This document shows, piece after piece, positions 4,140 through 44,172 of a stretch of 64,000 bases of DNA. Position 1 is the first letter of the stretch; each line of letters begins with the position of its first letter. A model generated the notes under the pieces. It was not told where the DNA came from and did no database searches. It worked only from the letters and a program-made list of their open reading frames with translations. Position numbers and translations under genes: made by a program. This stretch comes from Isoetes taiwanensis (lineage: Eukaryota > Streptophyta > Lycopodiopsida > Isoetales > Isoetaceae). Where the stretch lies: the NCBI GenBank assembly GCA_021234155.1, contig JAJEKV010000037.1, positions 1,544,171 through 1,608,170 of the forward strand, in the 5' to 3' direction.

Positions 4140-5040
4140 GTGAGTTAGAAATGGAGATTACGTGAAGCAATTCCTATTCTGAATTCTTCTTTGGGAGAAA
4201 GACATTCCTAGTTATTTTCTACGTTAATGCTCGCAATATCTTACTTCCTAACACCGCTCTCGATGATTTCTATCTCGGTTGCTTGCTACTATAACCACTA
4301 TTCTCACTTGTGCCCGCATAATGTATTCAATTCAACCACAAGCAAGAAAAAGATAACAAAAAACGAAAAACAATACAAAGATTAATGAGATTAATGAGAA
4401 AAACAGAGAACGCTGGAGAACAAATCTGAGAAAAAGTGGAGAACGATGCGAGAAAAATGAGATTAAAAAAGGGTATGATATTACAAAACATACCCGGAAG
4501 ATTTGTTTTGGATGAGGAGGAGGCTTCCGAGTTAAGCTTCCATGTGGGTATAGTCGTTGACAAAGCGTGAATAAGGATTTGTCCGGGTCAGAATTGTATC
4601 GTGGATTAATAAGAGCCTCTAACAACGTAATATAAGAAAAATGCACTAAAAGACTTCTGAGAAAAACTAAAAAGCGAAGACTAAAAGGGCCTCACTTTCT
4701 TCCCAAAGATGCGCCGCCGAACAATGAATCAAGGCGAGAACCCGGAAGCGCCCCGATCCGTCGACCAAGCCGTCATAATAATAAGATGGCCGAATCGCTT
4801 CGGTTCGATCGATCGCCTGATCGGTAAAAGCGCCTAAGGAAACAGGGGAGGAAGAGAGATCGAGAAAACGTGGGGAGGAAGAATGGTCGGGGGAGAGGAA
4901 GAGGGTGCGATTAATTAAAACACACCCTCGAACCTCGTAAAAAGTGCAATAATAAAACCATTGTCACGTGGGCCATGCCCTCCATGACGTGGCGATGGAT
5001 TCTTCGCGACGCCCACGGGCTCCCCTCTTAAGAGGCCACG
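4140..5040. other. Intergenic, purine-rich then GC-rich
   Basis: 4330-4480 is A-rich low-complexity DNA that yields spurious Phe/Ser/Leu-rich frames on the minus strand. 4690-5040 is CpG-rich, with several CGATCG/GATCG steps and a CACGTGG core (G-box-like) near 4964. This composition could mark a promoter or 5' region, but no gene was identified beside it. Confidence 0.35.
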
Positions 5041-5049
5041 GTGGCCATG

Positions 5050-5350
5050 ACAAAATATGAAAGGGTAGGTTATATGCTTATGTATTTAATAAGGTTTCAA
5101 TGGTTGTATTTAATATGGTTTCAATGGTTGTATTTAATATGGTTTCAATGGTTACAATGTTTACATATGGTTTAGAATGAGTGTGGTTGTATGCTTTAAT
5201 ATGGTTATATGATTTTAGTTAATATGGTTGTATGGTTTGTATATGGTTTGTATATGAGTGTGGTTTGTATGGTTTTATATGGTTGTATGGTTTGTATATG
5301 AGTGTGGTTTGTATGGTTTTATATGGTTCATATGGTCATATTTGTGGTGT
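5050..5350 (+). repeat. ATGGTT/GTATGG simple-sequence tract
   Basis: A low-complexity tract made of ATGGTT, TGGTTGTAT and TGGTTTGTATATGAGTG units, repeated imperfectly. It ends about 40 bp before the first credible codons of the downstream gene. The Trp/Phe/Tyr-rich translation of this tract is not protein. Confidence 0.75.
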
Positions 5351-5398
5351 TTGGGGCTATATGGTTTTAATGTGAGCTTTTTCATTCAGGGAGCATGT

Positions 5399-8300
5399 GA
5401 GATGAGTAAAATGGAGCCAGGGAATTCCAAAGGAGGCCATTGCCCTAGGCTCCAATGGAGGAAGATGGGTTGCCTTTTGTTGCACCCTTGCAACCAGACG
5501 GTATTTGCAGAGGGCATAATAACTGCAGTTGATCCATTTGATAGTGTGAATGATGAGAGGCTGGGAGATGAACATCTTGGAGTTGGCATTGTGAAGCTTC
5601 TTATCGAAGTTGATACTATCATGTCCCAGGGAAGCTCTAGGGCAAAAGTATGCTAGTGGGTATCAAAAAAACGCGGCCCCAGCACTTAGATCAGCACCAT
5701 GGATGTACTATTCTATCATAGTATTCCACTTGTTATTAATTGGAGTTGTTACATATTTCTATTGATTACCTAATTACCGTGTGCTAGTACCAGTAACACC
5801 TTAAACAAGCTGCCATATGGGGTGCTATATGAGTGCTGTCAGCATGTGTCTGGACGCCTGCTTTTGCACCCCACCAGCATACTTTTGCCCTCTAGTGATT
5901 GCATTGTGTGCTCAGGGCTGCTGGAGTCCCAAGCTCAGTTGAGATGGCCAATTAGATTTATTACACACAAGAATGGTGATACTCTAGAATGCCCTACTGA
6001 ACTACACACCCCAAGGCCCACCCAAGGCCATGTGGAAGATTTGGTGGTCGATGAGCATCCTTTGATCACAAGGAAGAGACGCTATGTCTTTCATAAAAGG
6101 CAGCCAAAGGTGCCCAAGAGGCCTAGAAGTGACAAATATTTAGAAAGGATGGAAAGTATGGCACCAACCAAAGAAAACCTGGAGGCAATTAGGGGACAAG
6201 AGTGTTGCAACCTAGATTGCACGCGGCATTACAATGTGGATGACCTCGTCTTGATAAGGTCCCAATACATTGGACAACTTCAAAAAAGATAGGATTAATT
6301 TCATTTACTCCTTGTGTAGGAATTCCAAATATGATGAAAACACAGATCTGCCGCTATATCAATTGAGGGGAATGAAGGTATGTATGAGAGCATTGAGATG
6401 GATTCTTGGGGTGAGCAAGTCTTCATTTTACAGATACTGGGAGCAGGTTAGAAAAGGGCACACTTTGTTCCAACATGGTAATGCACTCACTTTGAAACCT
6501 AGAGCAAATACTCTAAAGGCCATTGCAGTCTTCGAGAGCTTTGTGAGATACATGTCTCAATCTATGCCCCACAAGTCGAAGGTGAACGAGCACGGTGTGC
6601 TTAGTGGTGCAAAGAGTGTTGCCACAACACTATATCCAAAAGGAGTGCCTTGAGGAGGTCAACTCCATCCTAGAAACCACCGAGGTAGGCCTCTTTTCTC
6701 AATCACATTTCAGCAAGTTATGGAGCACTCACTTCTCGGACGTGAGTGTCCTACAACACATGCCATTCTCAAAGTGCAACACTTGCATTCAACTCAAGGA
6801 TACACTTGCATCAACTGCAATAGAGAAAGAAAGAATGGCAATTAGGGAGCAATTTGCAGATCACCAAAGGGACCAAATATCATGTAGACAGTTGTATTGG
6901 CGATGGAGAACATTTTCTCGAGATGCACCGGACAAATTTTTGTGTATAATTCATGATAAGATGGACCAACACAAGACTTTCTTGCCAAAGCTAGATCCTT
7001 TACCCAAGCGTTGTCAAAACGCTTTTCAGATGAAAGTAAGTCTGGCGGGTGTATTAACACATGGTCATGGAACTGGAACATATGGTCATTTTGTGCTTGA
7101 TCTATGGAGAGATGATCCAAACTTCCATGTGAGCTCTATTTTCAAGTGCTTGAGAACACTAGAGAAAGGATCGATAGAAGGGAGGAGGTATTCCCCTTCA
7201 ACACCCATTTTGAGGCTTTGATGGATGATCAACCGCTTTGTTACCAAAGGCGATAAAAAAGCTCACATCCAAGGTGTCTAGTGAATCAAGGAGGACTTGG
7301 GATGATTTCCCCTTACTTGAGAAATCAATTTGCTGAGGAGCTATGTGTTTCAGATTGGACAACCTGTTGGAAAAAAACAAGAATAGATGGATGTTTGGGG
7401 CAATGTCATACTTGACGGTGGGGGAGTATTCAAAGTTGTGAAAGTGGGATTCATGATGGTTGGGCATACGCATGATGATATAGATGGATTCTTTGGAACT
7501 TTCTCCACCAAGCTCAAGAGAGAAAACGTGACCACTCTCCCTGAACTAATGGATGTGTTTGAGAGCTGCATTGACCCCAACCCAATGGCTTTCTTGATGG
7601 ATGAGGTTGCAGATTGGAAATCATTTGTAGAAGGATACTTGCTAGATGGCAAGGACCAGTTGACAGGACACACAAAGCCACTTCAATTCAAGTTTTGGGT
7701 TAGGGATGGAATACCAATCATGCAATATAAGTGGAGACCAGGTGACAAGTTGTGGATGCCTGTACAAGGTATCGAGTTGTGGCAAAGGGGTGTTGCTGGT
7801 GAAGTTCTCATTCCTAAAGGGCAGCCAAAACCACTACCTCCCTTCAAGACAGTCAAAGACTCTAGCCAACTGGTGAAGGGCATCAAGGATTACATAACGC
7901 ACTGGGATGATGTTCGAAATGGAAAGCACACCTCCACTCTTAAGAAAAATCAAATGGACTCCCTAATCAAGTACTGGGAGAAAGTTGTGACATGCTTAGA
8001 AACCCAAAGTGACCATGTGGGAGGGAGCTAAGAGACGGGTTCTTGCCAGAGTCAAGATGGGAGGGTTCTCAAGGTGCAAGCACGTCTAAGAATGCTCACT
8101 TGGGTCCCAAGTGGTTTGTGGGAAGTAAGGCCTCAAAGCCAAAGTGGTTTGATCTTCCTGAGTGGGATCCCTTTGAGGACATCAAGGAAGGATACTTTGT
8201 GCTAGTAAGGCCTGATGATGAGGACTGTCCAATATGGTTAGGGGTGGCACTCTCCATGTGACCACCACTATGCCCCGATGGAGAGGAGTTGCGCCCTGGA

Positions 8301-8545
8301 TTCCAAATTCAATATTGGGAGCCCATTGGGAGGCACAAGAAGGGCAACTTGAAGGAGCAATACAATCGATTCTTTGGGAGAAGAAGTGGAGGCCAATTAT
8401 GTCGACCCTCAAAGGAGGGAATTGGTGGAGTGTGTGGTATGGTCATATCCAAGTTCTCACATTGCAAAAGACAACACACACAAGATCCCAAGAAAGGAGA
8501 TGGACAAGGCCATGAGCAACCTCCATGCTATATCATTGTATGAGG
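5399..8545 (+). pseudogene. DUF7869-type element gene, frameshifted
   Basis: One long plus-strand gene is spread over several frames. 5399-5650 starts MSKMEPGNSKGGHCPRLQW. 5810-6292 contains ECCNLDCTRHYNVDDL. 6270-6653 contains LGVSKSSFYRYWEQVRKG. 6595-7221 contains a cysteine pair (FSKCNTC), then FLCIIHDKMDQHKTFLPKL and GHGTGTYGHFVLD. 7350-8031 contains MMVGHTHDDIDGFFG (about 7456-7494) and 8043-8520 contains YWEPIGRHKKGN. The GHTHxDID signature, preceded by a cysteine-rich region and an Asp-containing HDKMD strand, is the pattern of the DUF7869 family, widespread in multicopy element-like plant genes. A nuclease/transposase role is my inference from the acidic motifs. Several frame changes fall at homopolymers (A6 at 6283, A4 near 6640, G5 near 7420), so some may be sequence errors. 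An intron at about 5720-5811 is possible. Confidence 0.6.
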
Positions 8546-8559
8546 GTGCATAATATTGA

Positions 8560-9222
8560 GAAGTTTGAAAACTTTCTCAACTAGTGGTTTGTAAAATTTA
8601 TGAGGAAAACAAGTAACCCAATTCTATGTGTGTCATGTGTAATTCTATTCAAGCAATCAATTCAGAAATTTCTTTTATGGTGTGTGAGTCCCATTTTCAG
8701 TCCGAGTCCCAAAATTCAAGATTTGTCCCACTTTAATTAAATACGACTTAATGTAGGTAATTGTAGTTGTTAAAGCTAGCATATTGGAAAAACAACCAAT
8801 TTTGTTAAGGGGTTCATGTCATCCCTCCCTCTTGAGGTTGAACATCCTCATTGGAAGAGAATGCCGTTACATGATGAGCTTGAATCTTTGCTAAAAACAT
8901 CTTTTGCTTTAAATACTACCAGAAAGTCATTGTACATCATTGCTTTAACATCATGAAAAGACCTAAAGCAGCAAAGGCATTCTCGAGTCGAGCATGTCCT
9001 ATAACGACACTATACATAGATATTGCACACTCCACCAAGAAAAAAAATGTAGGTAATTGTAGTTGTTAAAGCTATCATTGCTTTAACATCATGAAAAGAC
9101 CTAAAGCAAAACATCTTTGAAAAGGCATTCTCGAAAAGTCGAAAGCATGTCCTATAACGACACTATACATAGATATTGCACACTCCACCAAGAAAAAATG
9201 TAGGTAATTGTAGTTGTTAAAG
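8560..9222. repeat. Locally duplicated AT-rich repeat
   Basis: Two modules are repeated. Module A (TGTAGGTAATTGTAGTTGTTAAAGCTA) occurs near 8753, 9048 and 9200, and is followed by GCATATTGGAAAAACAACC in the first and third copies. Module B (TTGCTTTAACATCATGAAAAG through CACTCCACCAAGAAAAAA) occurs at about 8939-9046 and 9077-9197. Module B holds a remnant of the CTCGA palindrome (near 8980 and 9128). No gene is seen in 8560-8750. Confidence 0.65.
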
Positions 9223-9400
9223 CTAGCATATTGGAAAAACAACCAATTTTCCAGATGTTGCAAACATGTCAATGAGAGTAATGGCCAATACATCAACTGT
9301 TTTAAATCCAACACCAACTTCTTTAGCAATAATAATCGCCTCTTCTATGGGGACAATGCATGGTGTGAAGTTTGCTACTAGAAACATTTGAAATGAAAAA
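9223..9400 (-). pseudogene. Possible PPR fragment
   Basis: A 61-codon minus-strand frame reads PIEEAIIIAKEVGVGFKTV then DVLAITLIDMFATSGKL. The LIDMF-xx-GKL end resembles the L/S-type PPR helix 'LIDMYAKCGKL' of plant PLS-class PPR proteins, and EEAxxIAKEVxxxGF resembles the preceding helix. Only one or two repeats are present, so this is at best a fragment. Confidence 0.3.
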
Positions 9401-9408
9401 TATTGCAC

Positions 9409-9918
9409 CCTGTTATATATCTCTGAGATTTCATCTATAAGGTTTCATGTCTAAGCCTGTCATATCTTATTGTGCAGATTCACCTCTAACGATTCAAAGA
9501 ATACATTTTTTTGAAATATCCTTCGAAAAGGTAAACTTTGACTAATGCACATTTAAATCTGGAGCCCAAAATTCATATGTTTGTTATAAAATAAGTACCT
9601 GTTACATGAAACATTAACTAGAAACAAAAAGTAAATTGGGAAGTACATGAAAAATAGTGTTGTTTCAGAGAAAGCCAAGCCTCAGTGGAAGACCATAGTA
9701 ATAGACTTTTATAGATTAAGCAGGCCTATGGGAAACAGTTTACACCAAAGCAGTGTATAACAAACCTTTTTTGCCCAATAGGAAAAAAACCTTTTGTTTA
9801 TAAAATTAATAGGATTATATAAGTTTGAACCGGATTGGCCCTTTTGTTACAAAATCCATTAGGAACTTTCTTGTAACAAATATTTATAAAAGGGTCAACA
9901 TGAAGTTTCTTTTTTACA
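9409..9918. other. AT-rich intergenic, nothing recognised
   Basis: No coding signal. TTGTTATAAAATAAG and TTTGTTTATAAAATTAAT are ordinary AT-rich DNA. The tandem block starts at the right end of this stretch. Confidence 0.4.
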
Positions 9919-9939: not shown

Positions 9940-10390
9940 TATGTAATAAGAACTCTCTTTACAAGGACATACAATGGAAACAAAATCAAACTTTTCTATT
10001 TCAGACCATTGTACAAGCTCATCAAGTGTTGTAGTACATTGCAAAACCTATAATACATGCACTATATGATGAAAAAATGTTTTAGAGGTGGTCGTTTAAT
10101 ATGATTTAATATTGTAGGCGTATATTAAATATAATATTTTCATTCCCTATATAAAAGTAGCTTAGTAAGAAAATCCTACTAGTATAAAAATATAACAAAA
10201 AAAAATCCTAGGACCTATGGCTTTAACCGCCCAAATCCTTATACCATTTTTTGGACGCCCCAGATATCCTACAATATTTCATATGGACCGGAACTTTTTA
10301 ATTTGAACCGGATTGTTTGATTCAATCCTAGGACTTTGTTGCACATTGCACCACAGTAAATGTGTTTCTAAAACCAAGATTATATGAACA
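9940..10390. other. AT-rich DNA upstream of the Helitron gene
   Basis: No coding content. It includes TAATATTGTAGG and ATATTAAATATAATATT-like AT-rich inverted stretches around 10105-10140. A Helitron 5' end (TC with no inverted repeat) would lie in or left of here but cannot be fixed from one sequence. Confidence 0.35.
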
Positions 10391-10393
10391 GGG

Positions 10394-12032
10394 ATGGAAG
10401 AGGAAGCCCTACAAAATTTAAATAGGAAGACCACCCTACGAAGGAAAAGAAATGAAGCACGAGCTAGGATGTTTAAAAAAAGACGAGTTGCTTTAAGACC
10501 AACGGCCACGTCTTGGCTAGAAATTCAGTCATTGCAATGCCATTGGATAAAAGACACAGCTAGTCTCATAAAAAACATGCAAATTTGTGCAATTTGTGGC
10601 AAGACATCCTACAGCCAACCTTCTGATCATGCAGCCGAATTCCATTATCATGACAACCTACATCCTCCTCCATTTTGCTTGATTAACCCTTTTTTGTACA
10701 AGCACACTTCAGCTACAAATGCTAGATACTACAAATGTAGCAAGTGCAATCGTTCAAATGGCACCACATCTACAAGTCCAGCCTACTCTCCAATGTACAT
10801 AAGGCAAGTACTTACCTTGCCAATATTTTATACTCAGTTGCTATCGTTGATTTGATAGACATTTCCATAGTTGTGAAGAAGAAATTCAATTCTATAGCTA
10901 CTGGATCTAGTCAGCAAAGGAGCCTCCTTGACAATCCCCTTGTAAGTTGGGGTGACATAGACGACTGTCTCAACAATGACTCACACAATAAAACAGTTGC
11001 AAGTTTGCTGTGGTTCTTACTGAACAACAACATGTTAGTCAAGCAATTCCTAACATTGTCAAATCCAAGAACAGGACTTTGCATCTTACCAGCAAGTGTT
11101 GTTCAAAAAATAGCAGAACGATCAAAAAATGACCAAGCATATGCATCAATGCAACATATGAACATACGTGCCTACTCTATTTTGGAAGACATGTCGTCCT
11201 ATCAAACAACCCAACCATTTTCAGAGGGCGATGTTTATGAGCTCCCAAAGCTAGTACCAAGACAAACATCTACCACAAACAACTACCCAACCTACACAGA
11301 TGTTACTGGCCTTGTGATTAACAGAAGTATTATTGACAAAACTGCGCAAGAGGTGGCATTCACACTTGAATCATGTATATTCCCATTCCTCTTTCCCCAT
11401 GGAACAATGCAACAAGACAAAGACGACATCTTCCAACACCTAAAAACACGTATTAGTTGTCTCTTCTCCATTTTTACACTATACAAACCATACCTTCTCA
11501 TGATGTTTCAAGTTAGACAATCTGTCCTTCTCGCCAACTCCATAAACAACTGCTACTTGGACCGAGACATGCTAAAATACAAAAGAGAACACCCCACGTC
11601 CACAGATATTGAATGCATGCGCCATGTGATAAAATATAAAGTGCCCAAAACAATCCCCAATTCCCCATCATGGCACCGCAAGCATTTAAAAGACTTATTA
11701 ACAATGGTACAGTACTGGGGAATTCCAACATTGTTCTTGACTTTGACATCAGATGAGGTTTCCAATCACGAGATGGCCGTAAATTGATGAAATCGAAAAA
11801 TAGTCCAACAAATAAACCACACCTTCACGTGGATAGATTGTCCATGGAATGTGCCTTGTTATTCCATAGTAGGCTACAAATGTTCCTCAAATTATGCGTG
11901 TTAAAGAGTAATGGAATACTAGGAAATGTCATTCACCACGTCATACGATCACGAGGTGCAAAACAGACCTCCTTGCATGCACACATCATCCTTTGGCTTG
12001 ACAATGAAGACGTGAGACCGCATCACAAATGA
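10394..12032 (+). pseudogene. Helitron Rep region (copy 1), frameshifted
   Basis: N-terminal half of a Helitron Rep/helicase protein, which initiates rolling-circle-type transposition. From ATG 10394 there is a basic start (RRKRNEARARMFKKRR), then a zinc-binding pair CAICGK and CSKCNRS. After a frame change near 10800 comes the Helitron_like_N region: FPFLFPHG (about 11381), then SPSWHRKHLKDLL and GIPTLFLTLTSDEV (about 11665-11757). After another frame change comes the HUH-type motif LHAHIILWL (His-Ala-His at 11976-11984). A Tyr pair (YxxxY) was not found in the damaged stretch that follows. The family normally continues into a PIF1-type helicase, as it does here. The element is probably inactive, with several frame breaks. 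Confidence 0.8.
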
Positions 12033-13140
12033 AATTGTTGCTTACATTCCCAAGCCATCAAACGATCAATTTGAGAAAAAACTCCACAACTTAGTTGTCA
12101 CAAAACAAATCCATACTTGTAGGGACTCATGCTACCTAAATGGAAAAACGAGGCATTGCAAATACAGTTCCCATTTAAGCCACATGTTCTCCATAATGCC
12201 CAAATTGATGAAAAAGGTGAGAGATGGATATACTATCGCCTTAAAAAGAACATCAAAGAGTAGTCCCATATCACCCAACCTGTACTAATGTTGTGGGGCC
12301 CATATGAACCTTCTTCTCGAGAGTAACAAATGGCAATTAGTCATTTTATTTGTTAAAGTGCGCTATGAAAAGTGAACCCTATGGTCATTTAAACTTGAAT
12401 GCGATGACATAAAAAATTGGGGTTGCTGGTTTGGATGATACAAAGTGCAAGCTAATATCCGCCATGGTTCTCATCAAAACCAATATCAACCAATGAAGCG
12501 GCCACATGCTTACAAATCCCAACGATCCAAAGATCGAACCACAGTCACCTTCATAGACACATCCCCACCTTCAACAAGGCAACGTCTCATACGTTATGGG
12601 TTCAAGCCCTACACTCCATGCGATTGACTTGTACCGCAAAGACCAAGCTCTATGCAACACCTAACTTACAAGGAATTTTGGAAGAACTATTGTGTCCATC
12701 CTCCTAGCAGCAAGAAAGATCCTTATGCCATAGACAACTATGGAAACAAATATGGTTAACAAACCAAATGGTTAGATTCACCACCACCCAGTTCATCATA
12801 TGGAAGAATTACATTACAACATCCTACTTTCGAAATCCCGTTTGCACATGAGTCCTAACTAATCTCTCTGAGAACAACTGCGAGAATCATACATCCTTGA
12901 ATGTCAGACTCAGCGGTATTATGAATTGTGAAGAAGACATCATCAAGCACATTGGTTCCTACATTGAGTATCATCTACTGGAAGGCGAGGAGCAAATGCA
13001 AATGCTTCATGCAATATTAAGCAAGACACTCACTGCTGCGGCGAGACATCAACATCCTCACCAAACATAGAAAGTTACTTCAACAATAACACATTGTTAC
13101 ATGAACATCAACTCAATCACCCTCTAAAGGATGCACAAGC
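12033..13140 (+). pseudogene. Helitron central region, badly broken (copy 1)
   Basis: Short pieces in changing frames keep Helitron order. YKEFWKNYCVHPP (about 12670), KPNGW and then YNILLSKS-like and SLREQLRESYILEC-like pieces (about 12800-12905) correspond to the linker region before the helicase (typically ...NYYxxxLLLxxPFRxE...). No complete frame exceeds about 60 codons. Confidence 0.55.
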
Positions 13141-14411
13141 TGCAATCTTCGAAGAATTGAAGGGCAATCCACACGGTATTCCGCGTAGTCTCGGGAACAC
13201 ACAGTTGCGGAAAAACCTACCTCATTAAGAAATTGCGGCGGCATTACGAAGATCTTGGGTAAAGCGTGTCCTCATCAACGCAACAACCGGAATAGCTGCA
13301 TGCGGAATATCAAGAAGAGCAACTACTGTGCACAACCAATTCGCCATACCGGTGAAAAACCAATGGCCCTCAACTTTGTCGAGATCAGACATAAGGTATC
13401 AGCAAATAAATAGCTTTGACATCATCGTAATAGATGAAATGTCCATGATGACAAGTGTCACATTCAATATGGTTCGACGCCAAATATCAGAAGTATTGTC
13501 CTCTTCAATTGATGAAATACTTCTCACAAGAACAATACTCCTGTTTGGAGACCATGCACAACTTCCACCAATTTGCTACCACAAGAAAGATAAAGATGAA
13601 TGTTGCTCAGCATGCTTGCTATCCAATTCCATTCACTTTCAAAGAGCTCGTAAATACCACCTTCACCAATCCATAAGGCATTCATTGGACCCCTCTTATT
13701 CTACATTTCTCAATATCATTCGCACCAGAGAGCCAACAAATATAGAGCTAGTAAACAACCTAAAAAATAACATCATTGACAAGGCAGAAGCTCTGAAGTT
13801 GATTGATCAGAATACTACAGTATTATGCTCCCACAATGAGGACGTTCTCTTCTACAATAAGTTTGCAATCCGAAGCTGTTCTCGTTAAACCGCTAGTGCA
13901 AGTCCACATTGACACAAATGCCAAGGAAGAGGACGGTGTGGAACCATGGCTTTCAGAACATATTTTCCATGAAATCCCATATGTCGCAACGGGTTCTAAG
14001 GTCATTATCACATCAAACATAGACCTCCAATCCTCAATAGCAAATGGCACAAAAGCAATAGTGACATACATTGATATCGACGACAACAACCAAGTTCAAT
14101 CTATTGTATGCAGCATAAATGATTCTCTTCAATACGTCACAATTAAAAGGACAAAGATGGTTCACAAATACCATAACGGCAAGCATTTGTACAAAAGGAC
14201 ATTCCCATTAGCACTAGCATATGCAATGACTGGCCACAAGTCCCAAGGGTCAACAATAGATCACAAAGTGATTGTGGTTGTTAGAAAGGCATTTACACCA
14301 GGCCTGCTCTATGTGATGCTCTCAAGAGTTAGAACCTCACAACAATTGCATATAATTCGTCCAATCAAGCCTACAGATTTCAAGCCAAACAATGCTCTGC
14401 TTATGCATTAA
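13141..14411 (+). pseudogene. Helitron PIF1-type helicase region (copy 1)
   Basis: Superfamily 1 helicase domain. Walker A GTHSCGKT lies at 13194-13217, followed by a frame break near 13258 (GGGTAAAG). Then come LINATTGIAACGISRRATT, Walker B IIVIDEMSM (about 13421-13447) and motif III LLFGDHAQLPP (about 13540-13571). After a break near 13880 comes the C-terminal half: SKVIITSNIDLQSSIANGT, LALAYAMTGHKSQGSTI (about 14210-14260) and GLLYVMLSRVRTSQQLHI, ending at TAA 14409-14411. All conserved helicase motifs are recognisable, which is typical of a recently active but now damaged Helitron. The next gene begins only 81 bp downstream on the same strand. Confidence 0.85.
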
Positions 14412-14492: not shown

Positions 14493-16223
14493 ATGGCTCC
14501 AAAAAACAATTCAAATGCAAACGCTGGGAAAAGGAAGAATGAGGTGGAAATTACAGAGGTACTCAACCCATTGTGCAAATAAACTTGTGCTCTATATACT
14601 AACAAACTCTCTAACCCTACACTGCTAGTTGTGGGAGCATTACTTGCAAGAAATAGAGAAAGAAGATGATATCAAGAACGCATCGTCCAGTGCAACGAAA
14701 CACACTTTAACAAGTCAAGTAATGAGACATGTTAACCTATGTGGAATACCACCAGAAGACTATATACAAGGGTGGGACACAAAGCACGACATGATCGAAT
14801 TTAAAGAAACAGCAAGAACTTACAGAAACGACTTCCAACGGGACAACAATGAAGATCCTGCAGAAGGTAAACCTAAACAACTTGCTGGTTTATATCATCG
14901 TAACATTGAGCAGCATAAACCCAATAAATAGCTTCCAAGTTCTGTAAAAATGGTCGTCCCATTCTTGGAAAAAATGCTTCCAATAGATATCATATAGCCT
15001 TGATCAGAAGCATATCCATAGGTATCCATGCATAAACCCAATAAATAGCTTGCAAGTTCTGTAAAAATGATTGTCCCATTCTTGGAAAACATCCTTCCAA
15101 TAGATATCATATATCACTCAAGGCATGTCCTGACCAACAAACCTCAAACATCATCTTAATGAACAATTTCAAAAATCCATTGCATTCTAGTTCTCTTATG
15201 TCATCGGTTAAGCTCATTTCAATTTGATTTGTTATATGGTTCAGTTAGTCAATTATAAGACTAATGCATCTTCAAGCTAACCATTAGCTTTAAGTTTTCT
15301 CGCTAAAACTCTTCGTTTGTTAAAACCCAGGTTTCTTGAAGTATTTTCTAAAAGCAAACAATGTTGTCGCTGATTATGCAAAGTTAACGAAAACTGAAGG
15401 CAACGAGCTCCTCCAGAAAATATCTAACGGAATAAACTCATATCAAATGAGCATCCTACATTTTGGCTACAACGTCAGGATCCCAGCGTTACTTTGCTTG
15501 AAAAGGCCAGCTGCACAAAAACTGATGGAGAAAATGATGGGATCATGCAACCATGACCACAAAGAAAACAACCCCATGACAATTGAGAAGGTCACCCATA
15601 TATTGGATAGCAATCTGGAGTTAGAACTATACGGCAACATAGAATTTTTCCCAAAAGGAAGCATTCAACGTAATTGAAATCTCAGCTTAAAAGACAATTG
15701 ATACTCCAATGCAAAACAAGCTTGCTTTTAAATATACAATCTATATAGTGGCTAATTTACATTCATCATAAAAACACCTGGCATTTAACAATTAAATTAC
15801 CTTAGACGAACGTTCCATGTTCTAAGGTTAATAAAATATATTACATACATGACAAAACTAACTCATATTGAAACAGGTGCAAAACCATCAAAACAAGACA
15901 ATGCAATCAAAATATACAAGATAACCTGCATACGAAATAACAAAATGTACATTGGCCAATCCAAGCATCCAACAAAAAGATTCTTCCAACACCTAAAAAA
16001 ACCAAACATGAAAATGATTCATGACACAAATCTCTATCATCCAGCAATACAAAATTTCAAATTGGAAATACTCCATCAAACACAAGACAAAAAAGAGGCA
16101 AACAAACTAGAGAAAACTTACATCGCAAAATTAAACACAACAACGCATGGATACAACAACTTACAGAGCAACCCATCCAGTTCTAAGAAATACTGGTACT
16201 TAAAGCGTAGGGGAAAAATATGA
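14493..16223 (+). CDS. Spliced GIY-YIG nuclease-domain gene (copy 1)
   Basis: Four exons are inferred from GT-AG borders and frame continuity: 14493-14558, 14629-14866, 15331-15669 and 15877-16223. They sum to 990 nt, 329 residues plus stop. Intron phases are 0, 1 and 1, and the first and third introns have CTAAC/ACTAAC branch-like sites. The first about 210 residues are lysine/glutamate-rich and unrecognised (MAPKNNSNANAGKRKNEVEI; LWEHYLQEIEKEDD; YQMSILHFGYNVRIPALLCL). The C-terminal about 100 residues form a GIY-YIG domain: KIYKITC, MYIGQS, TKRFFQH (catalytic Arg), ANKLEKTYI (metal-binding Glu) and YNNLQSN (Asn). The family cuts DNA in mobile introns, some viruses, repair proteins and Penelope-like elements. 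It lies 81 bp after the Helitron helicase stop on the same strand, so it may be a Helitron accessory gene or a captured host/viral gene. Without the introns the domain alone reads as a 124-codon frame from 15849. Confidence 0.6.
14914..15110. repeat. 117-bp tandem duplication in an intron
   Basis: CATAAACCCAATAAATAGCT begins at 14914 and again at 15031. The second unit runs about 80 bp before diverging. It lies inside the second intron of the GIY-YIG gene and is also present in block copy 2 (about 42855-43050). Confidence 0.8.
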
Positions 16224-16860
16224 CATTCGATGTTTTACAAAATCAACAAGATCATAGGAGTTTCATTCTACTGCACGTGAGCTAATGCATTTTGTACTTG
16301 CCACTCTTTCAACAACGTACTGTTTCAAAGACGTATTATTCCTGCTTAATTCAAAAGTTTCCATATGTTTAAGTGAACATTGATACAAGCATCTTTTCAA
16401 ACATGTAATTTCTGTAAAAAGTAATCAAACGTGCTTTTGACTAGTTTTTTTTTTTTTTAACATTACATATAATGTTGCTTAAACAAAAAGACAACAAGAG
16501 TCTTTAATAGTTGACCAATGGCATAACATGTTGTGGCACCAAAATATTGATTCTTAGACATAGAGCCTTATTTATTTGTTCACTAAAATAATAATATATG
16601 GTAAGTGCACAGCTGATAGAACATGTGTGTATGCAGCTCCCAAGACCTTTTATGTGAACAATTGCTTTTATGAGCCGAAAGAACTTAATTGGCATGGGTC
16701 CCCAGGTATCAAATTTAATAGTAAGATATTTTCTTAACCTAAGATATACAATAAGACTACATGACAGCCTGGTAAGATTCTTTGACCGCAAAAACCCTAA
16801 GGAAGATTTTGTATCTTCACATTTACAGCAATAGGAAACCCTAAATGGGCTTTCATTCTG
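16224..16860. other. Intergenic 3' of the GIY-YIG gene
   Basis: AT-rich, with a T-tract at 16446-16459 preceded by CTAG (16441-16444). CTAG is compatible with a Helitron 3' end (CTRR), and AAAAG...CTTTT just upstream could form a weak stem, but neither is diagnostic. No coding signal is convincing, including the minus-strand frame at 16504-17037. Confidence 0.35.
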
Positions 16861-17149: not shown

Positions 17150-18800
17150 CTACCTCTGCTTGCATTTCGCTAAAGATATTATAGATATCTTCTTTATAAT
17201 TCCTGATAGACAATAGGCTATGATTCTTTTTGTAATACATAATGTCAGGGATCTGCACAATTCTAACTAATACAACTAAGATAATGTAGCATAATGGCTT
17301 GCTAGATTGAACTGATTAAAAGTTCAGGGATATAATAAGACAAGCCACAGGATATTATGGTCTTAAGCATATAATATGTGCAAGGAATTTGGCCTTTTGC
17401 TATTCGGCTGTCCGTTGTCGGCTGTTAGGAATAGCTGAAGTATTAATACATCTCAGATCATACAGTAGCATATATAAATGAATAAGATAAGTACCCTTAA
17501 AGCTAGCTGCTACCTTATGTAACAATAAGGGCATAAATAGAAAAAGATATACCAAGCTGGATAATATATCTAACTAGGATAGGAAGAATAGGTTTGACAT
17601 GCAGATCCATTGCTGTTGCAGTAGTACAGTTATTACTTATATTGGATTTGTAAATTCCCTCATAACAGGAGGATGCTCTAGAGGAATTGATTTGACATAG
17701 GGGGTACGTAGGATTTGGAATTGAGATATCCTCTTTCTTTATCTGTCCTGCCTCTATTTCCAATGGATTACTGGCCTCATCGTAATTAAAATAAAGGTGA
17801 CTGGTACAAACTTTCACCAATTTTTAGGTGCCCTTTAAATGGAATTGACCCAGGTGGTGATGATGGGATGCCCTGTGCAGTACACATGTAATTGTTCTCC
17901 CTGCTTGGTGGTTACCAGACAAGTTTCTGGTGTCATAATATGAACTGAACAAGTGGCTAAAGGAGCAACAATGCACTGCCTAACTTTACAAGTGGGCATG
18001 CTTGTTAAACCGAGGAGGGCTATGATTTATCTCTGGCTGAGACCTACACATGGAAGATGGCTTCATCAGATTAGTATTCTTTAAGCTACCCAGGTCAATA
18101 CTCTTGACATTATACAAAGTAAGGTAAAGCTAAAAGAGTAACACATTGAAAGGATTTGAGCAGCCAAGTGGTTATGCAGTACTGTTTGTCATAGGATAAA
18201 TTGGAAAAGCAGATATAATGACGTTAAAGGTTTGAACAGCTGGTAGTTATATGGCAGTGGATAACATGACATAGAATAGACATTGTATTCAATTTTCAGA
18301 ACTAGTGCTGAACATAAGAGATTGGTTCTCACTTACTGTTACATCTATGAATAGGCTGATGCATTAAACTAACTCCAATATCCCTTATGCTATTTCTAAC
18401 ACAAGGGGCAGAAGGCACAATGGGTAATCAGCGATGAGCTGAAAATCCCAAAGTACCTTTTGGCCCTTGCCCTGGTACCGTTTTCACGCTAACTGGGTAT
18501 TGATTGGCTGCAGGTACGGGATTTTCTTCCCATTGTTACTTTTGCTCCGTGTGTTTATTTTGGCTTAAAGGAAGATGGAGGTCTTGAAGATTAACAAGCT
18601 GTTTCAATGACATTTAAGAACGACAGAAGCAATCACAATGGATTAGAAACTTTGGCAGTCACGGATTACCTGGTTTTTCAATGATTTATTTTTTCTTATT
18701 TCTATAATGCTTATTATAGATTGCTAGCATTTTTCCAAATATAGTTGGCAGTCTGGCTTTTAGTGCTATAAGATAACAGACGTATCCTTAGCCTTGACAT
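17150..18800. other. Intron-like or intergenic DNA, no exon recognised
   Basis: AT-rich, stop-dense on both strands. If the RG-rich exon is live, this could be its intron sequence: TTGCAG/GTxx-like borders occur (for example near 18510 and 18925), but no exon with a recognisable domain was found. Confidence 0.35.
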
Positions 18801-18999
18801 TATCATGTTTACATATTAGCATAGTTGTTTATGGTGAAGGGCGATTAGCCGGATAAGTTCTTTGTTTACCTGCCGAATACATGACAACCATGTCTAATGC
18901 TTGTTTGTGTATTGTTTGGTGCAGGTAACCGAGCTTATCCTTCCATATGATGCTGTGTGATGCTGTGGTTTACAACATATTAACTCAGTTTTCTTAAAA

Positions 19000-19177
19000 G
19001 ATATTTTGGTGACATCTACAAGCTTTTATTCTGTTGTAGCTTAACATGAACACATGTTTATGAATGAATACTCTACATATTCTGTTTTGATATTTTGGTA
19101 ACATCTTCAAGCTTTTATTCCGCTGTAGCTTAACATGAACACATGTTTATGAATGAATATTCTACATATTCTGTTTT
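19000..19177 (+). repeat. 89-bp tandem repeat, two units
   Basis: GATATTTTGGTGACATCT starts at 19000 and GATATTTTGGTAACATCT at 19089, each continuing through AACATGAACACATG to CTACATATTCTGTTTT. It lies inside the inverted repeat arm and is mirrored at about 25090-25270. Confidence 0.85.
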
Positions 19178-19331
19178 GATGTCATAATACTATGTTTTGG
19201 TCCATATATTTCTCTGTTTTCTTTATTTGATAATATTATGGTTAGCAGAATTATTGTTGTAAGTCTTTTTGCTCCTGAACTTGTTTTTTCATATACATAG
19301 TTAAGTTTACATGTCCTGCACAAGTTTTTTT

Positions 19332-19565
19332 CGTCACCTTTTCGGCCATTACTCCTTCATATGGGTGAACCACAGCCAAATCGGAAACTAGACTCCGAGC
19401 CGGTTCCAATGAGGTAAAGGTCGCCGCAATCCGACCTCTGGTTGCCGAGATATGTCCAACTGAAGTTTCGGTTCTATTTATAGATCTCTCTGCGACTTTA
19501 GCCTTTTTTTTAGCAAGCAGTTGCCTTTTTTCCCAAAATATCTCCTTGCCTTTAATTAGATTATA
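19332..19565 (-). mobile_element. LTR fragment, inverted (copy 1)
   Basis: Read on the minus strand this matches the first part of the LTR at 32715 (TAATCTAATTAAAGGCAAGG ... CTATAAATAGAACCGAAAC ... GGCCGAAAAGGTGACGA), including the TATA-like CTATAAATAG. It is truncated at both ends and forms the inner end of the left inverted-repeat arm. Confidence 0.8.
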
Positions 19566-24633: not shown

Positions 24634-24952
24634 TGTTACGGCACAAGCTCGGGGGAGTAGCTCAGAGGATTTGCAGAGATGAACACAGAGGCAAAGGTGT
24701 TAGTCATATAATCTAATTAAAGGCAAGGAGATATTTTGGGAAAAAAGGCAACTGCTTGCTAAAAAAAAGGCTAAAGTCGCAGAGAGATCTATAAATAGAA
24801 CCGAAACTTCAGTTGGACATATCTCAGCAACCAGAGGTTGGATTGCGGCGACCTTTACCTCGTTGGAACCGGCTCGGAGTCTAGTTTCCGAATTGGGGTG
24901 GCACATTCTGTGGTTCACCCATATGAAGGAGTAATGGCCGAAAAGGTGACGA
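24634..24952 (+). mobile_element. Truncated LTR (copy 1)
   Basis: Starts TGTTACGGCACAAGC directly after CTTAC, like the 5' LTR at 32715, and matches it for about 319 bp up to AAAAGGTGACGA. There it breaks into the unique part of the inverted-repeat arm (AAAAAACTTGTGC). Because the upstream 95-bp repeat R is shared too, this is a duplicated segment and not an independent insertion. Confidence 0.85.
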
Positions 24953-25485
24953 AAAAAACTTGTGCAGGACATGTAAACTTAACTATGTATATGAAAAAAC
25001 AAGTTCAGGAGCAAAAAGACTTACAACAATAATTCTGCTAACCATAATATTATCAAATAAAGAAAACAGAGAAATATATGGACCAAAACATAGTATTATG
25101 ACATCAAAACAGAATATGTAGAATATTCATTCATAAACATGTGTTCATGTTAAGCTACAGCGGAATAAAAGCTTGAAGATGTTACCAAAATATCAAAACA
25201 GAATATGTAGAGTATTCATTCATAAACATGTGTTCATGTTAAGCTACAACAGAATAAAAGCTTGTAGATGTCACCAAAATATCTTTTAAGAAAACTGAGT
25301 TAATATGTTGTAAACCACAACATCACACAGCATCATATGGAAGGATAAGCTCGGTTACCTGCACCAAACAATACACAAACAAGCATTAGATATGGTTGTC
25401 ATGTATTCGGTAGCAAGTAAACAAAGAACTTATCCGGCTAATCGCCCTTCACCATAAACAACTATGCTAATATGTAAACATGATA
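24707..25485 (-). repeat. Inverted repeat, right arm (copy 1)
   Basis: Reverse complement of 18801-19565, about 95% or better by eye. It includes the truncated LTR (to 24952), the mirrored 89-bp double repeat and AAGGATAAGCTCGGTTACC. The outer end is near 25485. Confidence 0.85.
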
Positions 25486-26076
25486 AGCATTAAAAAGATA
25501 TTACAGGGGCATAAAGTTAGAATTAGAAGGTGAGCCTAAATTAGAACGGCTGGATTACATCAGCAGGTTATAATAGACAATAGATTCAATGCAGGAGCTA
25601 AGTTAAAGGAGGAAAATCCTTTAACTTAGAATAGAACGGGAAGAGTAAAGCACATTAATATTATGATGCAGAGGATCAGCAAAGCATGAATAAAATCCAG
25701 AAATAACTTGAAAGCAAATTATCCTAGTTTAAATTACAAAGACTGAAATGTATAAAACATGCAGGAGAAAAGGGTTAAAGTTTAAAAGGAAACAAATGGA
25801 GAACAATGAAAAATAGAGGAATGAATTTAAGAGAGAGAAAAATTCAAGCTATCATATAAGATAATGTAGTAATGGCCTAATTAGGCCTAAGAAAAGGTTG
25901 GGGATCGTGGAGAGTTTGAATAGATAGAGCGTAAATTGTTGGAAATATGGAAATTTATTGGGAAGAAAAAGATACAATTAGACATTATATTATGGAAAGA
26001 ACAGGATTCAGATAAGCAATAATGGACAAATAGTAAGAAGAAGATATGAGCAACAAAGATAACTAAATCCAGACAG
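25486..26076. other. A-rich intergenic, nothing recognised
   Basis: Purine-rich on the plus strand and stop-dense. No gene or repeat family was recognised. Confidence 0.4.
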
Positions 26077-41200: not shown

Positions 41201-42346
41201 GCGGGAATAGGCTTGCATCGCGGAATATCCAAGAAGAGCAACTCACATGCACAACCAATTACGCCATCTGGGTGAAAAACCAATGGCCCTCCCAACTGTC
41301 GAGATCCAGGACATAAGGTATCGTGAATAAATAGCTTTGACATCGCCGTAATAGATGAAATGTCCATGATGACAAAGAGTGTCACATTCAATATGGTTCT
41401 CGCCAAATATCGAGTATTGTCCTCTTCAATTGATGAAATACTTCTCCGCAAAGAACATAATACTCTGTTTGGAGACCATGCACAACTTCCCGCAATTTGC
41501 TACCCGAAAGATAAAAGATGAATGTTGCTTTCGGCATGCTTGCTATCAATTCCATTCACTTTCAAAAGAGCTTCCATTAAATACCACCTTCACCAATCCA
41601 TAAGGCATTCATTGGACCCCTCTTATTCTACATTTCTCAATATCATTCGCGCACGAGAGCCAACAAATATAAGAGCTAGTAAACGGCTTTAAAAAATAAC
41701 GCATCATTGACAAAGCGAAGCTCACGAAGTTGATTGGTCGAGAATACTCTGATAATATACTCCCCACAATGAGGGCGTTCTCTTCTACAATAAGTTTGCA
41801 ATCCACAGGCATTCTCGTTAAACCCGCTAGTGCGTCCCACATTGACACAAATGCCAAGGAAAGGACCCGGATGTGGAACCATGGCTTTCCGAACCTACTT
41901 TCATGAAATCCCATATGTGCCAGCGGGTTCTAAGGTCATTATCATCAAACTTAGACCTCCAATCCTCAATAGCAAATGGCACAAAAGCAATAGTGACATA
42001 CATTGATATCGGCGACAACAACCAAGTTCAATCTATTGTATGCGGCATAAATGATTCTCTTCAATCGTCCGCGATTAAAAGGACAAAGATGGTTCACAAA
42101 TACCATAACGGCAAGCATTTGTACAAAAGGACATTCCCATTAGCACTAGCATATGCAATGGTGGCCACATCCCAAAAGGGGTCAACAATAGATCACAAAG
42201 TGATTGTGGTTGTTAGAAAGCATTTACACGGGGCACGCTCTATGTGATGCTCTCAAGAGTTAGGAACCTCACAACAATTGCATATAATTACCGTCCAATC
42301 AAGCCCCTCTGATTTCAAAACCAAACAATGCTGCAACATGCATTAA
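38238..42346 (+). pseudogene. Helitron Rep/helicase (block copy 2)
   Basis: Second copy of the Helitron gene at 10394-14411, with more frame breaks. The HAH motif (LHAHIILWL) is intact at 39876-39899. Walker A is damaged near 41112-41133 (one codon short). Walker B is shifted near 41343-41369. The C-terminal SSIANGTKAIVTYIDIG and RTFPLALAYAM are readable at about 41960-42160. Extra breaks sit mostly at CAG/CTG and homopolymers, so this copy is not evidence for independent decay. Confidence 0.8.
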
Positions 42347-42428
42347 ATAAATTTTGACCTTAATAATATTTTAATCTCATATGAGAATGACAACACACCT
42401 TTATGGCCAGATTAATAACAAAAGAAAA

Positions 42429-44172
42429 ATGGCTCCAAAAAACAATTCAAATGCAAAAGCCAGGAAAAGGAAGGAAATGAGGGGAAATTCTGAGAGGAAC
42501 TCAACCCATTGTGCAAAATAAACTTGTGCTCTATATACTAACAAACTCTCTAACCCTACAGCTGCTAGTTGTGGGAGCATTACTTGCAAAAAGAAATAGA
42601 AAAGAAGATGATATCAAGAACACATGCGTCGGTCTGCAGCGAAACACACTTTAACAAGTCAAAGTAATGAGACATGTTAACCTATGTGGAATACCACGAA
42701 GACTATATACAAGGGTGGACACAAAACACGACATGGTCGAATTTAAAGAAAGGCAGAACTTCTGAAGCGACTTCCAGGGACAACAATGAAGATCTACCAG
42801 AAGGTAAACCTATAAAACAACTTGCTGGTTTATATCAGCTAACATTTAAGCGGCATAAAGCCAATAAATAGCTTCCAAGTTACTGTAAAAATGAGTCCAT
42901 TCTTGGAAAAAATGCTTCCAATAGATATCATATAGCCTTGATCGGGAAGCATATCCATAGGTATCCATGCATAAACCCAATAAATAGCTTGCAAGTTCGT
43001 AAAATGATTGTCCCATTCTTGGAAAACATCCTTCCAATAGATATCATATATCCTCAAGGCATCATGCGACCAACAAACCTCAAACATCATCTTAATGAAC
43101 AATTTCAAAAATCCATTGCATTCCTAGTTCTCTTTGTATGTCATCGGTTAAAAGCTCATTTCAATTTGATTTTGTATATGGTTGAGTTAGTCAATTATAA
43201 GACTAATGCATCTTCAAGCTAACCATTAGCTTTAGTTTTTTTCAAGCTAAAACTCTTGCGTTTTATTCCCAAAAACCCGGGTTTCTTGAAGTATTTTCTA
43301 AAAGCAAACAATGTTTATGCATTTGATTATGCAAAGTTAACTTGGCCAGAAGGCAGCGAGCTCCCTCAAAGAAAATATCTATGAGGAATAAGAACTCATA
43401 TCAAATGAGCATCCTACATTTTGGCTACAGCGTCGGGGATCAGCGTTACTTTGCTTGAAAAGGCCGGTTGCACAAAAGGATGGAAAATGATGGGATCATA
43501 CAACCATGACCACAAAGAAAACAACCCCATGACAATTGAGAAGGTCACCCATATATTGGATAGCAATGCAGGTTAGAACTATCACGGCAACATAGAATTT
43601 TCCCAAAGGAAGCATTCAACGTAATTGAAATCGGCAAAAGACAATTGATACTCAATGCAAAACAAAGCTTGCTTTTAAATCTCTAGATCTATATAGTGGC
43701 TAATTTGCATTCATCATAAAAACACGGCATTTAACAAATTAAATTTACCTTAGGCCAGGCGTTCCATGTTTCTAAGGTTAATAAAATATATTTACATACA
43801 TGACAAAACTAACTCATATTGAAAGCAGTGCAAAACCATCAAAACAAGACAATGCAATCAAAATATACAAGATAGCTTGCATACGAAATAACAAAATGTA
43901 CATTGGCCCAATCAAGCATCCAAAAGATTCTTCCAACACCTAAAAACCAAACATAGAAAATGATTCATGATACAAATCTCTATCATCCAGCAATACAAAA
44001 TTTCAAATTGGAAATACTCCATCAAACACAAGACAAAAAGGCAAACAAACTAGAAAAAACTTACATACTTAAAATTAAACACAACAGCATAGGATACAAC
44101 AACTTCTGAGCAACCCATCATCCCGGTTCAAAAATCTTTGGCGGGTACTTAAAAGCGTGGGGAAAAATATGA
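42429..44172 (+). pseudogene. GIY-YIG gene (block copy 2), frame-broken
   Basis: All four exons of the gene at 14493-16223 can be found in the same order: ATGGCTCCAAAAAAC at 42429, GTGGGAGCATTACTTGC near 42570, TTTCTTGAAGTATTTTC near 43281, and the GIY-YIG exon at about 43820-44172. Many 1-3-nt differences break the frame (for example near 43905 and 44040). The KIYKI, KMYIG and KRFF-equivalent codons remain visible. Given the CHG-type changes in this block, the copy may be intact in reality. Confidence 0.6.

Follow-up and report, generated by a model that had tools for sequence, protein, structure and literature searches.

A GIY-YIG nuclease gene inside a Helitron lineage of Isoetes taiwanensis

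In a 64,000-nucleotide stretch of Isoetes taiwanensis DNA, called the window below, a GIY-YIG nuclease gene (14493-16223, + strand) starts just behind the end of a Helitron helicase. Does the nuclease belong to the transposon and, if so, what might it do there? Accessory genes known from Helitrons encode RPA, OTU protease, AP endonuclease and Fanzor. Two steps of Helitron movement, the opening of the target and the completion of the second strand, are to our knowledge still unsettled; accessory genes offer a natural clue to both. The reading that we favour, with a probability of about 0.7, is that of a Helitron lineage with an ancient, intron-bearing GIY-YIG accessory nuclease, whose N-terminal domain is lineage-specific and which would cut DNA in the course of transposition.

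The gene and its product

The helicase frame (13803-14411) is followed on the same strand by 81 bp and then by the nuclease ATG at 14493, a spacing already given by a sequence-only reading of the window. That reading had also joined four exons across three introns into a frame of 330 codons, and enumeration of the GT-AG joins led us to the same frame. Exon 1 (14493-14558, 22 codons, ending in phase 0), exon 2 (14629-14866, ending in phase 1), exon 3 (15331-15669) and exon 4 (15877-16223), all on the + strand and separated by GT-AG introns in phases 0, 1 and 1, make up 330 codons including the stop, or 329 aa, with no internal stops. The acceptor at 14629 was taken as the best fit because a sister lineage described below (lineage B) has a homologous exon, with W-E-x-x-L-x-E-I directly after its own acceptor; exon 2 is also conserved in L049-L056. 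In other copies, the exon blocks of the window nuclease recur with proteins that are 45-54% identical. The window lineage and the sister lineage have an identical exon 2/exon 3 splice (G|GT TTC). Comparison of divergent copies and of the two lineages thus supports the introns as real. Intron 2 contains an 84-bp direct duplication (14913-14996 and 15030-15113, 94%), found in other copies too.

Exon 4 encodes the GIY-YIG domain (15912-16157) and a conserved tail, PSxxKKYWxLxxRxKI. When the protein variant using the 14638 acceptor (326 aa) was searched, PF01541 (GIY-YIG) matched residues 224-305 with an E value of 1.1e-10, which bears out the signatures that had been noticed in the last ~100 residues. 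The active-site elements of the superfamily, namely the GIY and YIG strands with the Arg, the Glu and the Asn, are all present: Y15, YIG (Y26-G28), R36, H40, E80 and N95/N96, in exon 4 numbering, are invariant across diverse, distant copies, and the first Gly of the GIY motif is missing (x-I-Y). In profile and structure-database searches, the nearest relatives of the domain are the homing endonucleases of group I introns and phages. The domain is matched by TIGR01453 at 2e-13, a match under that model's own cut-off, by the I-TevI structures 1mk0/1ln0 with an E value of 1e-5, and by PHROG homing endonucleases, which are among its closest matches. IMG/VR contigs gave generic GIY-YIG relatives only, 31-41% identical across most of the domain.

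Exon 3 encodes a conserved N-terminal domain of about 110 aa, in which 22 residues are invariant across 8 diverse copies. Profile searches of Pfam, PDB, IMG/VR and prokaryote genomes returned no credible match to it, in agreement with the earlier description of this part of the protein as unrecognised. Weak matches to isopentenyl transferase and endoglucanase were rejected as not credible, and structure prediction for exon 3 from the single sequence reached a pLDDT of 45.

The element around the gene

A tblastn search with the intact 1388-aa RepHel of the sister-lineage locus L074 traced the RepHel gene of the window from 10388 to 14411 (+ strand), in multiple frames and with stops. The HUH motif HAHIIL (at 11976) and the PIF1-type helicase C-terminus (13803-14411) are kept. 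Many stops and frame changes disrupt this gene, so the copy is not autonomous, though its nuclease frame is open. Of the element as first described, the adjacency of helicase and nuclease therefore stands, but the RepHel of the window is a pseudogene and the tail runs to 16444, past the 16223 reported as its end.

The 3′ end is the CTAG at 16441-16444 (+ strand). Three independent 10-kb copies (L057, L058 and L059) stay aligned with the window across the nuclease gene and all end at one and the same base, directly after this CTAG, their flanks beyond it being unrelated; six short copies, again with differing flanks, match the window over the last 45-60 bp only and have the identical end. Overall, the nuclease gene region has about 20 long copies at 81-99% identity, and the 22-bp terminus occurs 369 times exactly in the assembly searched (1,658,258,908 bases, 1110 contigs), with 0 occurrences for the reversed control. 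The window and most copies have CTAG|T as their terminus, and L058 has CTAG|A, so that the CTRR followed by T of the Helitron1 type, which inserts between A and T, is found here as CTAG|T. Divergent subfamilies have GCTAG|T; their ends read GTGCCTYTTGCTAG|T or near variants and lie about 0.1-0.4 kb past the nuclease stop (about 110-340 bp for these ends). Of the 41 exact termini of one subfamily, 11 lie 195-392 bp downstream of a GIY-YIG match on the same strand, and the remaining 30 presumably belong to short non-autonomous copies. Because the shared 3′ terminus lies downstream of the nuclease stop, the nuclease gene is inside the Helitron. Helitron copies ending before 14493, which would have told against this, were looked for, and none was found among the copies read.

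The 5′ side is less regular. A part common to other copies covers 8750-9918 (+ strand); similarity to L058 and L059 starts at 8750, and to L057 at 8858. Tandem repeats of 140-160 bp occupy 8750-9250, and several copies break off there at differing points. No 5′ TC end was found in the window or in the copies compared. Two copies extend several kb further upstream than the window; their common stretch of about 10.2 kb starts with TGCTGTTGC, not with TC. The window copy thus seems to be 5′-truncated, as do some others. At the 3′ side, a search for a hairpin 10-12 nt before the end revealed a weak AT-rich stem only, and 179 of 200 shuffles folded equally well. The element is therefore filed as a Helitron by its RepHel and its 3′ end, and is not a canonical Helitron1 in every respect.

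Directly after the CTAG, outside the element, comes a T-tract at the insertion site (16445-16458). At least six T follow 131 of the 369 exact termini (35%), where about 0.1% would be expected for random AT-rich sequence by base frequency. T-tracts are strongly preferred as insertion sites of the window Helitron family.

A tandem segmental duplication fills most of the window: its units, 9918-35939 and 37757-64000, are about 26-28 kb long and 90.6% identical over 26.8 kb, and both contain the Helitron with its flank. The second helicase end and nuclease copy (41861-44172, + strand, 89% identical, with stops in exon 3) thus comes from the tandem duplication and is not a separate insertion. Inverted 780-bp repeats (97%) lie at 18800-19565 and 24707-25486, and are present in the duplicated half too.

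Pairing, descent and selection

The sequence-only reading had proposed a genome search for other Helitrons with the same downstream gene, and the pairing does recur. The helicase and nuclease lists compared were the best 150 candidates for each, and the pairing counts are lower bounds. Among the 33 helicases closest to that of the window, at least 25 are followed within 8 kb by a nuclease gene on their own strand, mostly at a spacing of 0.5-1.4 kb, against a chance expectation of 0.29 among all 150 helicase matches listed. Two further helicases (C908:6580144 and C907:39683304) have the nuclease 11-14 kb downstream, a spacing consistent with later insertions. For other Helitron families, one of the 100 best PIF1-profile helicases has a nuclease match within 8 kb, 7 kb off. 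The genome holds more than 1800 Helitron_like_N candidates; the best are mostly of other families, and some are single open frames of at least 1000 aa.

The order helicase, exon 2, exon 3, exon 4 was found at all eight divergent loci read, where protein identity to the window is 54-64% for the helicase and mostly 44-54% for the nuclease exons. The RepHel of a divergent locus on C907 has HAHIIL and YLLKYAVK. One relative, C974:8799216-8799719, has a 1352-aa open RepHel frame and no nuclease detected within 8 kb. The association is therefore not absolute, and the nuclease may be dispensable or act in trans.

In lineage B the same nuclease gene is found upstream of RepHel but on the other strand, so that the two genes diverge. 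Its sequence was read at two loci. L074 (C995:670480-678920) holds an uninterrupted 1388-aa RepHel with HSHIIL, YVLKYATK and GTPGSGKT, matched by Helitron_like_N (PF14214) at 7e-22 and by PIF1 (PF05970) at 2e-19; nuclease exons 2-4 lie about 3 kb upstream in divergent orientation, exon 4 having a frame break (RepHel at 4273-8436 and nuclease pieces at 172-1250 of L074). With the gene of the window broken, it is on L074 that the HUH motif, the two-tyrosine motif and the PIF1-type helicase expected of a RepHel are found together, the HUH and two-tyrosine motifs being present on C907 too. At L070 the RepHel N-terminus stands head to head with nuclease exons 2 and 3. By coordinates, the opposite-strand arrangement is found at 7 or 8 more loci; contigs with this arrangement are C68, C957, C974, C1018, C1025, C1039 and C1087. 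Both lineages share the exon 2/exon 3 junction, which implies that introns were already present in the gene of their common ancestor.

Helicase and nuclease protein distances, compared by Mantel tests over 21-22 loci, are strongly correlated (exon 3, r 0.83; exons 4 and 2, r 0.93; p 0.0005), which points to an old nuclease that diverged in step with the helicase. Selection was estimated from pairwise counts. Pooled pN/pS was 0.19 over independent sister pairs (0.07 to 0.31 for single pairs), and comparisons between subfamilies show saturated synonymous sites but a nuclease protein that is still about 50% identical. Close, partly decayed copies gave a median dN/dS of 0.23 for exon 3 and 0.42 for exon 4. 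Most copies are decayed. For the window subfamily, purifying selection is weaker (w about 0.3-0.4), and exon versus intron identity did not separate selection from drift. Taken as pairwise estimates, these values indicate that the nuclease is under purifying selection.

Could the nuclease nevertheless be a passenger, namely a host or intron-type homing nuclease that was acquired in a single capture and then carried along with no function in transposition? Helitrons readily capture genes, the domain has its nearest relatives among the homing endonucleases of group I introns and phages, and spliceosomal introns are kept as in captured host genes. A useless gene would decay, yet pN/pS is 0.19 and the catalytic residues are invariant across subfamilies saturated at synonymous sites; the gene also persists in two lineages with differing gene arrangement. 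We consider a mere passenger unlikely. A selfish homing-type gene, using Helitrons as its host and spreading by cutting nuclease-less copies, would explain why the gene follows the helicase in the window lineage (lineage A) but precedes it, in divergent orientation, in lineage B, and would fit both the affinity of the domain to homing endonucleases and the existence of at least one related RepHel without nuclease. Frequent hopping is nevertheless at odds with the strong correlation of nuclease and helicase distances, which implies long joint inheritance, and with the conservation of introns and neighbourhood within lineage A, so that a homing parasite is quite improbable. Coincidence, with a host or Penelope-like GIY-YIG gene beside a Helitron and both copied by later duplications, could invoke the large segmental duplication that carries both genes, but is scarcely credible, and was rejected, given the common terminus of independent copies with unrelated flanks, the recurrence of the pairing in divergent subfamilies and the lack of an adjacent RT among the frames that were listed for the loci read. 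A Penelope-like reading was rejected as well: instead of being joined to a reverse transcriptase, the GIY-YIG domain follows an unrelated N-terminal domain, the neighbouring gene is a RepHel, and the frames listed show no RT.

Of the two options in the sequence-only reading, the first was a Helitron family that has a GIY-YIG protein as its accessory, and the shared terminus past the gene, the recurrent pairing, the joint divergence and the purifying selection all speak for it. The second, a captured viral or host nuclease, bears on where the gene came from.

What the nuclease may do, and known systems

With its HUH/Y2 nicking-joining part and its PIF1 helicase, RepHel provides complete rolling-circle machinery, which makes the nuclease an accessory. 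As the gene is retained with invariant active-site residues, DNA cutting is presumably what selection keeps, and the product is probably a DNA nickase used in transposition. It would nick or cut DNA during the process, most likely either at T-rich sites, where it would open the target strand, or on a strand or branch left by RepHel, which it would process, and its N-terminal domain might give specificity or contact RepHel. A link between the T-tract preference and the nuclease is a conjecture. More tentatively still, the lineage might work with two nucleases, HUH and GIY-YIG, and not with RepHel alone, the GIY-YIG enzyme being a working second enzyme that sets the choice of T-tract targets; we regard this fuller proposal as possible, though on balance doubtful. 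Two lineages have kept the nuclease together with the helicase under selection, which makes it a concrete and testable second-enzyme candidate for Helitron transposition, and its long co-inheritance with the helicase points to an unrecognised tool in Helitron movement.

Canonical plant Helitrons (Helitron1) encode RepHel and RPA-like accessory genes, and plant Helitron RPA genes bear introns. The present lineage resembles them in a RepHel with HUH, Y2 (YxxxYxxK) and PIF1 parts, in a 3′ CTAG followed by T, in many short non-autonomous copies, and in an accessory gene that bears introns. It differs from them in that the product of this gene is a GIY-YIG nuclease whose N-terminal domain is new, in the strong T-tract at the insertion site, and in that the 5′ TC and a clear 3′ hairpin were not found in the window lineage. 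The closest characterised GIY-YIG domain is that of I-TevI and the group I intron homing endonucleases (TIGR01453, 1mk0); unlike these, the window nuclease has no intron context, has other N- and C-terminal regions, and is a spliced nuclear gene in a transposon.

No published Helitron with a GIY-YIG nuclease was found in a search that took in part of the literature, with Repbase and eukaryotic databases outside it; the GIY-YIG passages sampled there concern Penelope-like elements, Terminons, mitochondrial introns and a viral Mariner. Penelope-like elements and Terminons have a GIY-YIG endonuclease in a eukaryotic mobile element, as here, and the Terminons of rotifers also hold stand-alone GIY-YIG and Rep-like ORFs (PMC6431247); these are retroelements with reverse transcriptase, whereas the partner in the window is a RepHel, with no RT in the frames listed. 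PGv-1 is a viral Mariner that encodes a GIY-YIG protein together with Fanzor1 (PMC3627910), hence likewise a DNA transposon with a separate GIY-YIG endonuclease ORF, but it is a DDE cut-and-paste element of a virus and an isolated case, whereas the element of the window is of the rolling-circle type. Helentrons, or Helitron2 (PMC5148889), are Helitron-like elements with an acquired endonuclease and T-rich insertion sites, features shared with the present lineage, and Helitron2 gene orientation is variable; their endonuclease domain, an AP endonuclease, came from a retrotransposon (PMC6431247). In the window, by contrast, the GIY-YIG nuclease has a spliced gene of its own, and the element ends in CTAG. 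A GIY-YIG nuclease would thus join the known accessory genes of Helitrons, in parallel to the gain of an endonuclease in Helentrons.
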